DNA from: Bradyrhizobium septentrionale
GTDB lineage: Bacteria; Pseudomonadota; Alphaproteobacteria; Rhizobiales; Xanthobacteraceae
Assembly (NCBI RefSeq): GCF_011516645.4
Contig: NZ_CP088285.1
Coordinates: 2,498,501-2,562,500 of the forward strand
Direction: 5' to 3'
Length of the DNA: 64,000 bases
Shown: positions 43,024-44,527 of the stretch, one piece after another
Layout: every line of letters starts with the position of its first letter
Numbering within the stretch: the first letter of the stretch is position 1
The notes under the pieces: model-generated
Seen by the model: only the letters and a program-made list of their open reading frames with translations
The model's database searches: none
What the model was told of the DNA's origin: nothing
Made by a program: the position numbers and the translations under genes

Positions 43024-43051
43024 CGTCGTCCTGGCGAAAGCCAGGACCCAT
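43024..43051. repeat. Left arm of a family C palindromic element, split by the insertion sequence
   Basis: CGTCGTCCTGGCGAAAGCCA and GGACCCAT. The inverted right arm is at 44501-44527, so the two arms are now about 1.45 kb apart instead of about 80 bp. Confidence 0.9.
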
Positions 43052-43066
43052 ATGTGGACGGCCCCC

Positions 43067-43306
43067 GTGGCACAAGAGCTGTTTGGTGAGATCGGATCGC
43101 TTGCATCCATATGTCCGGCCTTTTGAGTGCGATCGAATGGATCGCTGGCCAAGATGGTTTGCGCGATGCGAGTTCCAAACAACCACGCGACCTGTTGGCG
43201 GCCGATGGGTCCTGCGGACTGTCTCGCATCGTTGCTCGATCGATCGCTCCATCTGCTCTTGCAGCTCCGGTCGGTCGGCGAGCGAGCCCGCCGGCTGGCC
43301 AATCTA
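43067..43306 (-). ncRNA. Candidate bridge RNA / seekRNA of the insertion sequence
   Basis: This 240-bp non-coding segment lies 3' of the transposase, where IS1111-type elements are known to encode the guide RNA. GATGCGAG (43165-43172) pairs with CTCGCATC (43223-43230). The 50-nt loop contains ATGGGTCCTG (43205-43214), the exact complement of left flank 43042-43051. It also contains CAACCACGCGACC (43180-43192), matching right flank 44419-44431 at 10 of 13 positions with all three differences tolerated as G-U pairs. A second region (43107-43114, CCATATGT) repeats the left element-target junction. Transcription and strand are inferred. Confidence 0.6.
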
Positions 43307-44344
43307 TTAGGCGGCGGCTGTCATGGGATTCATCCGTGCCGCCTCGTAACTCTCGCCCGTCGCCATCAGCTTCCAGGCGATGCGGGCCACTTTGTTGGCG
43401 AGCGCCACGGCCGCAAGCTTCGGCGGCTTGCGCTTGATCAGCGCCAGCAGCCAGCGCGAGTGATGACCGCGTCCCCGCCTCGCCTGCTGGATCACCGCTG
43501 TGGCCCCGACCACCAGCAGACGGCGCAGGTCCTCATCGCCCGCCCGCGTGATCTTGCCAAGCCTGGTCTTGCCAGCGGTGGAGTGGTCCTTGGGTGTCAA
43601 TCCCAGCCAGGCCGCAAAATGACGACCAGAACGGAACGCGCGCGGATCAGGTGTCTTCATCACCAGCGCGGTTGCAACGATCGGACCGACCGAGGGGATC
43701 TGAGCCAAGCGCCGGCCCGTGGCATCGGCGCGGTGCCAGGCCATCAGCTTGGCCTCAATCGCCTCCAACTCACCCTCGAGCCTGATGCGCTCCCGGCCCA
43801 GCACCACAAACAGCTCGCGCGCCAGAACGGGAAGCGTCTCGTCCTGCGCGATCCGCGCCAGCAGTGGTTCGATCGCGTCCAATCCCTTGGGTGCGATCAG
43901 GCCATACTCCGCCGCATGGCCGCGTATCGTATTGGTCAGCTGGGTGCGCCGGACGATCAATCCGTCGCGGACACCCATCAGCATCAGCGCAGCCTGCTGC
44001 TCGGCCGTCTTCACCGGCACGAAGCGCATGCTCGGCCGGCTCATCGCTTCACACAGACCTTCTGCATCCCGCCCGTCATTCTTGTTCCGCATCACGTAGG
44101 GCTTAACCAATTGCGGTGCCATCAGCTTCACCTCGTGACCGAGCTTGGAAAGCTCCCGCGCCCAATGTTGCGAAGCCCCGCATGCCTCCATCCCGATCAC
44201 GGTCGGCGGCAATTTGGCGAAGAACTCCAGCACCTGTTTGCGCGACAGCTTCTTGCGCAGCGCCACCTGCTCCCTCGCATCAACCCCATGCAACACAAAA
44301 ATATACTTCGACGTATCAATCCCAATGCGGATAATCTGGTTCAC
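43307..44344 (-). CDS. IS110 family transposase (DEDD)
   Basis: 345 aa from the GTG at 44344 (GGGAGCC upstream); longer upstream starts run into the element end. N-terminal DEDD RuvC-like domain: IRIGIDTSKY, VIGMEACG and KNDGRDAEGL carry the acidic residues. C-terminal transposase_20 domain: LAQIPSVGPIVATALV and FAAWLGLTPKDHSTAGKTRL with the region of the catalytic Ser. Intact and full length, so the element may be active. It would recombine donor and target under guidance of the element's own RNA. Confidence 0.93.
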   Translation of the reverse strand: MNQIIRIGIDTSKYIFVLHGVDAREQVALRKKLSRKQVLEFFAKLPPTVIGMEACGASQHWARELSKLGHEVKLMAPQLVKPYVMRNKNDGRDAEGLCEAMSRPSMRFVPVKTAEQQAALMLMGVRDGLIVRRTQLTNTIRGHAAEYGLIAPKGLDAIEPLLARIAQDETLPVLARELFVVLGRERIRLEGELEAIEAKLMAWHRADATGRRLAQIPSVGPIVATALVMKTPDPRAFRSGRHFAAWLGLTPKDHSTAGKTRLGKITRAGDEDLRRLLVVGATAVIQQARRGRGHHSRWLLALIKRKPPKLAAVALANKVARIAWKLMATGESYEAARMNPMTAAA

Positions 44345-44500
44345 GGACGGCTCCCATGTATGAGATCTAGACAACCTCATTCTGGCACACTGATGCCGTA
44401 GGGGGCCGTCCACACCATCAACCGCGTGATCTATCGAGCAAAGAGGTAGCAGTACCACGGTGCGGAACAGCCGGCCTTCGCCAAACTCCTCCCTGTGGTC

Positions 44501-44527
44501 ATGGGTCCTGGCTTTCGCCAGGACGAC
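44501..44527. repeat. Right arm of the split family C palindromic element
   Basis: ATGGGTCCTGGCTTTCGCCA then GGACGAC, the inverse of the arm at 43024-43051. Confidence 0.9.

Follow-up and report, generated by a model that had tools for sequence, protein, structure and literature searches.

In a window of 64,000 nucleotides of the Bradyrhizobium septentrionale genome (the whole stretch of DNA analysed, C2:2498501-2562500), a 1,370-bp IS1111-type element lay on the minus strand within a REP palindrome. Very probably, this REP-targeting element encodes a minus-strand seekRNA aimed at half-sites that lie 1–2 nt further apart, and the intervening bases are absent after insertion. The assignment of the predicted RNA as an IS1111-type seekRNA (bridge RNA) is secure at the level of sequence. 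Taken as a seekRNA alone, it is an ordinary, further member of an already known kind. The feature that would appear to be new relative to the known seekRNAs is the combination, in the REP-targeting group, of guides offset in register with a loss of bases.

The element and its REP target

Read on the minus strand, the element consisted of a left extension, an inverted repeat, the transposase gene, a non-coding region, a second inverted repeat and the extension ATA (Table 1), with ends drawn by the published convention of a 7-bp left and a 3-bp right extension. The subterminal inverted repeats were perfect over 13 bp, within the IS1111 range of 11–13 bp, and the 240 nt of non-coding DNA between the transposase stop codon and the right repeat corresponded to the long downstream region typical of IS1111. 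The 7-bp and 3-bp extensions were accompanied by no target duplication, as in IS1111 elements generally; the REP-targeting group had no duplication either, and 1–2 target bases were missing there. The left end read TG[A/T]TG in nearly all listed relatives (exceptions: L015, one base short, and L120, where it was missing). Membership of the IS110 (IS621-type) group, in which the RNA lies upstream of the transposase and long subterminal inverted repeats are lacking, was rejected, as neither feature was found here.

The transposase comprised 345 aa if the GTG start that we chose (VNQIIRIG...) is taken; the query for the domain and relative searches began two codons upstream of it. It was classed as a DEDD transposase at the level of its domains, PF01548 and PF02371. 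Its C-terminal sequence matched the PDB entries of ISCro4 (9t56) and IS621 (8wt6), and the C-terminus GLTPKDHSTA fitted the IS1111 motif GL-P----S(T)G, of which a 'TA' variant is mentioned for the family (PMC11187229). The closest named relatives came from Bradyrhizobium. Five of the 56 PF01548 matches in the 10.4-Mb genome had the score of this element, and these five copies had a 291-bp end region in common. Each measured 1,360 bp from outer end to outer end of the inverted repeats, with identical extensions. Twelve of the 56 matches to this IS110-type transposase domain had one identical best score. An Rfam scan of the window at the gathering threshold gave no match.

All five copies found in the genome carried the same guides and occupied the same REP palindrome; to their right the sequence read TGGGTCCTGGC[T/A]TTCGCCAGGAC. 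Copies with these guides at unrelated sites, named in the initial annotation as evidence against a guiding role, were thus not found. The palindrome pattern had 25 exact matches in the genome, 15 of them elsewhere and 10 at the five filled loci, each of which contributes two, the target plus its inverted partner. On the basis of its CGTC end, we consider the palindrome similar to the CGTC-tagged REPs described from Bradyrhizobium (PMC3733652). IS110-family elements are already known to target REPs (PMC1525189), and guides aimed at a REP explain the presence of the element's own copies in one REP family.

Table 1. Features of the element, its predicted RNA and its target (positions in the window)
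Feature	Position	Strand	Remarks
IS1111-type insertion sequence	43051..44420	-	perfect 13-bp subterminal inverted repeats; 5 genomic copies
Left 7-bp extension TGATGGT, TG core first	44414..44420	-	same in the 5 own copies
Left subterminal inverted repeat GTGGACGGCCCCC	44401..44413	-	
Transposase	43307..44344	-	PF02371 E 1e-22, PF01548 E 2.2e-10
Right subterminal inverted repeat GGGGGCCGTCCAC	43054..43066	-	
Right 3-bp extension ATA	43051..43053	-	relatives differ: ATC in L114, ACA in L122
SeekRNA/bridge-RNA region used in the structure model	43088..43266	-	31-sequence alignment; consensus fold with compensatory changes
Outer helix, 5' arm	43237..43245	-	helix 1, partner 43090-43099; 98.0% of cells paired
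Outer helix, 3' arm	43090..43099	-	helix 1
Target-hairpin stem, 5' arm GATGCGAG	43223..43230	-	helix 2
Target-hairpin stem, 3' arm CTCGCATC	43165..43172	-	helix 2
Top-strand guide: CAGGACC 43208-43214, core CA 43206-43207, +1 U 43205	43205..43214	-	guide-target co-variation
Bottom-strand guide: GUGGU 43182-43186, core UG 43180-43181	43180..43186	-	guide-target co-variation
Candidate right donor guide CCAUC	43153..43157	-	would pair with left-end GATGG; inferred, one compensatory event
Candidate left donor guide ACATATG(G)	43107..43114	-	same sequence as the right-end junction; function inferred
Target REP palindrome CGTCCTGGCGAAAGCCAGGACCCA, right target half	43027..43050	+	TG core 43049-43050
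Left target half GCGGT	44421..44425	-	
Partner REP of the same inverted pair	44501..44525 (C2:2543001-2543025)	-	beyond the left flank

The predicted RNA and its guides

The consensus fold was obtained from 31 of 32 extracted sequences (L119 was left out, and L131 was missed by the extraction). It consisted of an outer helix, a target hairpin and a second branched arm containing ACATATG, with 37 pairs and 97.0% of cells standard. Fifteen pairs were changed on both sides, against a shuffled mean of 6.9, and none of 500 shuffles reached this number. The stem of the target hairpin had been proposed before, and both of its strings were found at the positions given; six of its eight pairs were changed on both sides among the aligned sequences. 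It contained 56 double-change cells, compared with at most 12 in slid controls, a comparison that favours the fold since the structure was derived from the very alignment tested. Folding of the single sequence gave a modest signal (z -1.89 for the minus strand, -0.72 for the plus strand). The minus strand, which is that of the transposase, was chosen for the RNA because of synteny and co-variation and not on the fold z scores; this corrects the initial annotation.

In the hairpin the top-strand guide, made up of 7 nt, CA and 1 nt, precedes the bottom-strand guide, made up of 5 nt and UG, in the 5'-to-3' direction. The order of the guides had seemed swapped and had been suggested as a group difference, and it is indeed the published IS1111 order, in which the top-strand match lies 5' of the bottom-strand match (PMC11187229). 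Three relatives (L025, L118 and L119) had approximately 17–18 nt extra between the two guides compared with most others. The 10-nt complement of the flank was recovered, with CAGGACCCAT (43214 to 43205, minus strand) complementary to positions 43042-43051, the right flank in the orientation of the IS. Its last base pairs with element base 43051 in the filled site; in 102 of 103 distinct empty contexts it meets the REP's own A. The longer match on the other side was likewise present, GGTCGCGTGGTTG (43192 to 43180, minus strand) being identical to GATCACGCGGTTG at 10 of 13 positions with three wobble-compatible differences. The working guide would be shorter, approximately 5 nt (43182-43186) plus the TG core. 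A function of the 13-nt match over its full length was rejected, as its GGTCG part is paired scaffold (helix 4) that is kept in many relatives with other targets. Among the 13 flank bases, two (44419-44420) are already part of the element itself.

Potential donor-binding nucleotides occur in a multiloop in many IS1111 orthologues (PMC11208160), a position that fits the ACATATG arm here. The repeat of the element-target junction described for this arm was present at 43048-43055, one base off the earlier placement at 43049-43056. ACATATG occurred in 31/31 aligned rows, which proves little because the right end that it matches is also nearly constant. For the other donor half, one co-varying event was observed: elements of the ISRsp4 type combine the left end TGTTGAG with UCAUC in the RNA, a single compensatory event, and the A/T variation at the left end was uncompensated. 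The two segments may be donor guides.

An exact tandem array with a period of 348 bp was present on the S. fredii CCBAU 83666 plasmid NZ_CP023072.1 (~161232-163155; L204/L212), where the guide-RNA region was matched 6 times. The array extends between a TG within the transposase gene and the element's right end, and its junction CACATATGGAAGC is identical to 13 nt of the candidate donor guide in the RNA. It could be an assembly artefact or the result of self-directed recombination.

Co-variation of guides and targets among relatives

Guides and targets were compared in 17 of 29 genome-contig loci, the five own copies and 19 plasmid relatives, the latter fetched from 60 listed records among 1,555 matching. 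The remaining 12 contig loci had no paired subterminal inverted repeats of this type and were excluded from the guide counts; L031, L035 and L039, with no such pair, were used only in the first alignment. Plasmid relatives set aside were L115 and L128 (no repeat pair detected), L120 (left extension missing) and L124, which was compared separately. The extraction pattern did not capture two further relatives (L114 and L118), and a single fixed rule gave both guides for 35 rows. A 96% copy whose guides are altered, L214, was left unplaced. Collapsing identical guide pairs left 27 distinct pairs, own element included. The permutations omitted L015, with its left extension one base short, and L119, whose right flank matched its own guide at only 2/7 positions and counts against the pattern on that side.

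In the 27 pairs, the top guide formed 164 of 189 possible Watson-Crick pairs with its target (permuted mean 69.1, maximum 107) and the bottom guide 118 of 135 (mean 36.6, maximum 67). Counted over 18 distinct targets, the scores were 109/126 for the top guide (permuted maximum 73) and 82/90 for the bottom guide (maximum 49). None of 20,000 permutations reached any of the four scores. The co-variation test proposed in the initial annotation was thus strongly positive, and its reading of an IS1111-type RNA with guides matching both sides of the insertion site was upheld. When the 240-nt non-coding region was shuffled by mononucleotides 20,000 times, 77 of the shuffled sequences contained an exact match of at least 10 nt to the right flank. 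As judged from these sequence comparisons, the single 10-nt flank match is only moderately unlikely by chance, and the co-variation across relatives is decisive.

The relatives had a common scaffold with guides aimed at other sequences. Several of their targets lay in transposase genes of other elements, namely of the IS630 (L124, L127; intact homologue L198), IS6 (L129; L200) and IS3 (L132; L201) types. The target of L126 adjoined an annotated transposase gene (intact homologues L199, L202), and that of L028 lay upstream of one (L112). This bears on the idea that the RNA matches are incidental and that REP recognition by the transposase depends on protein-DNA contacts or on folding of the DNA into a hairpin. 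REPs can fold, and attC and REP targets have been described as potentially folded structures (PMC11187229), but relatives with the same scaffold occupy unrelated targets matched by their own guides, several of them inside or beside transposase genes of other elements, and we consider this explanation extremely improbable. Across 18 distinct targets of a single IS1111 lineage, the comparison yields a naturally occurring and statistically strong map of how guides pair with targets, including guide lengths, the TG core and the +1 position.

Two plasmid relatives differed at their junctions. In L116 (Microvirga sp. VF16), the top guide had CU in place of the terminal CA, and AG replaced TG at the right junction, with TG kept at the left; the element seems to have supplied the left core and the target the right one. 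L120 (Rhizobium sp. CB3171) was without the 7-bp left extension, and its left flank entered the inverted repeat as CCCCA-TG, where CCCCA is identical to its own bottom guide. A pattern search of 385 Alphaproteobacteria for the empty site of relative L032 gave 0 matches and was uninformative.

Target bases missing after insertion

Filled sites of the canonical relatives read LEFT:TG(A/T)TGG...ATA:TG-RIGHT (colons at the junctions). The intact homologous sites read LEFT-TG-RIGHT, with no loss, for five targets (L028 vs L111-L113; L124 vs L198; L126 vs L199 and L202; L129 vs L200; L132 vs L201 and L203); L111, L202, L200 and L203 had single-base differences at the edge. For the REP-targeting group, 112 fetched loci around five insertions were examined, and 25 REP sites passed a two-flank similarity filter; only sites above the score threshold were read. 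All 25 orthologous intact sites had 1–2 extra bases before TG, between the guided half-sites, which were absent from the filled copies. For the window copy the extra base was 1 nt (GCGGT-A-TGGG in 10/10 sites, 8 loci), and in most of the other 15 sites there were 2 nt. These read GTGGT-TA-TGGG for L009 (4/4); GTGGT-AC, GTGGT-AA and GTGGC-AA for L011 (one each); GGGGT-AA (3), GGGGC-AA (1) and the one-base-shorter GGGTAA (1) for L012, with a further GGGGTAA (1) whose left flank aligned only in part; and GTGGT-TA for L014 (2/2). Which bases count as lost depends on the 7+3 ends, which relatives retain. The own copy L013 lay outside the comparison.

Since the empty sites stem from other species or replicons and not from the ancestor of this genome, the insertions might have entered rare REP variants already without the 1–2 bases, which would read GGTTGGGTCC at these loci. 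Such a variant would be needed for each of five insertions, yet the base before TGGG was never T or G in 103 distinct empty REP contexts (102 A and 1 C, orthologous sites included), and GCGGTA-TGGG stood in 10/10 filtered orthologous sites of the window locus, which makes this origin very unlikely. Before the left-junction TG of the filled sites, the base was T, C or G, never A, in 15/15 insertions of the REP-targeting group (5 of them own copies).

Loss would also be unnecessary if the exchanged core in this group were the dinucleotide before TGGG (TA), with the 'TA' at the right end coming from the target and the left junction holding the donor core TG. The GTGGT-TA-TGGG targets of the L009 and L014 orthologues fit this scheme without loss if the circle had 8 bp between the repeats. 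However, the right end was still CACATA-TG where the targets read GGGGT-AA (L012 orthologues) or GTGGT-AC/AA (L011 orthologues), and the target of the window copy, GCGG-TA, would require an extra T at the left. Canonical relatives have the same ATA, yet no TA stands there in their intact target homologues. We regard a TA core as unlikely; it and the shorter-REP origin explain some loci, not all. Under base loss, the circle junction would have 10 bp between the repeats (ATATGATGGT).

The base after CA in the top guide (+1) formed a Watson-Crick pair with the last base of the left half in 13/19 non-REP relatives (5 of 50,000 permutations), a count that includes L023, although its right half is TGGGTCCCC. 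With wobble allowed, the pairing held in 14/19 (52 of 50,000 permutations). The +1 base therefore belongs to the target reading. Five non-REP relatives failed the rule even with wobble, among them L126, L129 and L132, which showed no loss; for L125, also one of the five, a right-flank search listed 15 of 32 records, none of which was fetched, thus giving no empty site. In the REP-targeting group the +1 base was U in 15/15 rows, and it can pair with the REP's A in place of the left half's final base. For L022, L024 and L036, a wobble pair between the U and the G at the end of the left half would also be available, and these three do not discriminate. The bottom guide of this group ends one or two bases further left than the reading of the top guide; at the sites with missing bases, the two guides are thus not in register.

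In ISRsp4-like elements, whose target is ACCA-TG-TG-GGCC (L198), the top guide lies on the second TG and the bottom guide on the first. With the same guides, two copies in S. fredii CCBAU 83666 were without one TG and two copies in NGR234 kept the 2 nt; the NGR234 copies had identical flanks over the bases compared and may not be independent insertions, and the intact target sequence is that of L198. The offset therefore permits loss and does not force it. L014 and L036, from the same B. liaoningense genome, had similar REP contexts, the bottom guides CGGGT and AGCGG, and left junctions ending in CCCTGGGGT and CCCTGGGG; a one-base shift of the left boundary may accompany the change of guide.

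For the REP-targeting insertions we propose that the top strand of the REP (A-TG-GGTCCTG) would pair with the top-strand guide, and the bottom strand opposite GTGGT/GCGGT with the bottom-strand guide, the TG core being the point at which the transposase would insert the element. Separate pairing of each strand with its own guide follows the published pairing scheme. If each DNA strand were registered by its own guide, the nick positions would follow each guide separately; with halves 1–2 nt apart, the nicks would be displaced, and strand exchange would leave target bases unpaired. These might be removed, or corrected to the element's version, as the junction resolves. That the two target strands are registered independently, so that guides for half-sites 1–2 nt apart would give insertion with deletion of the bases between, is, in our estimate, about as likely as not. 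Among the titles and abstract openings of the matches listed, no description of target-base loss by IS1111 or IS110 insertion was found, in a search outside which most subscription papers lie.

Relation to known elements and implications

The downstream region of IS1111 elements yields seekRNAs of 70–100 nt that co-purify with, and are required by, the transposase (PMC11187229). With the published IS1111 seekRNAs (ISEc11, ISKpn4, ISPst6, ISPa11; PMC11187229), the system described here has in common a DEDD transposase, subterminal inverted repeats, a 3' non-coding RNA, a top-strand guide preceding the bottom-strand guide, and overlapping target matches; the guide order is the reverse of that in the IS110-type ISEc21 (PMC11187229). 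In contrast to those seekRNAs, the guides of the REP-targeting group disagree on the base next to the core, and 1–2 target bases are missing, whereas no additional bases were generated in the ISEc11 assay (PMC11187229). As in the bridge RNA of IS621/IS110 (PMC11208160), there are two target guides for opposite strands, both with the core dinucleotide, and possible donor guides; unlike there, the RNA lies in the other end of the element, the guide order is reversed and the core is TG instead of CT.

A REP is also the target of ISPa11 (PMC11187229), in a different host group and with a different REP. All copies of ISPa11, ISPpu9, ISPpu10 and ISRm19 counted in a published table were REP-associated (PMC1525189); these have other hosts, and the accessible text of that paper never mentions Bradyrhizobium. 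The annotated ISRsp4 and ISShsp1 of rhizobial and sphingomonad plasmids have the same RNA scaffold, similar ends and a transposase ~65% identical; ISRsp4 is inserted in an IS630-type transposase gene, unlike the element here, which lies in a REP.

The comparison suggests a rule that is not stated in the accessible parts of PMC11187229 and PMC11208160: the two guides may be offset from one another, and bases that separate the half-sites can disappear. It is relevant to the mode of cutting of the top and bottom strands and to how RNA-guided insertion tools are designed. If true, insert-plus-delete junctions would be programmable through the guide offset, and the REP-targeting group of Bradyrhizobium would be a natural, fixed example.
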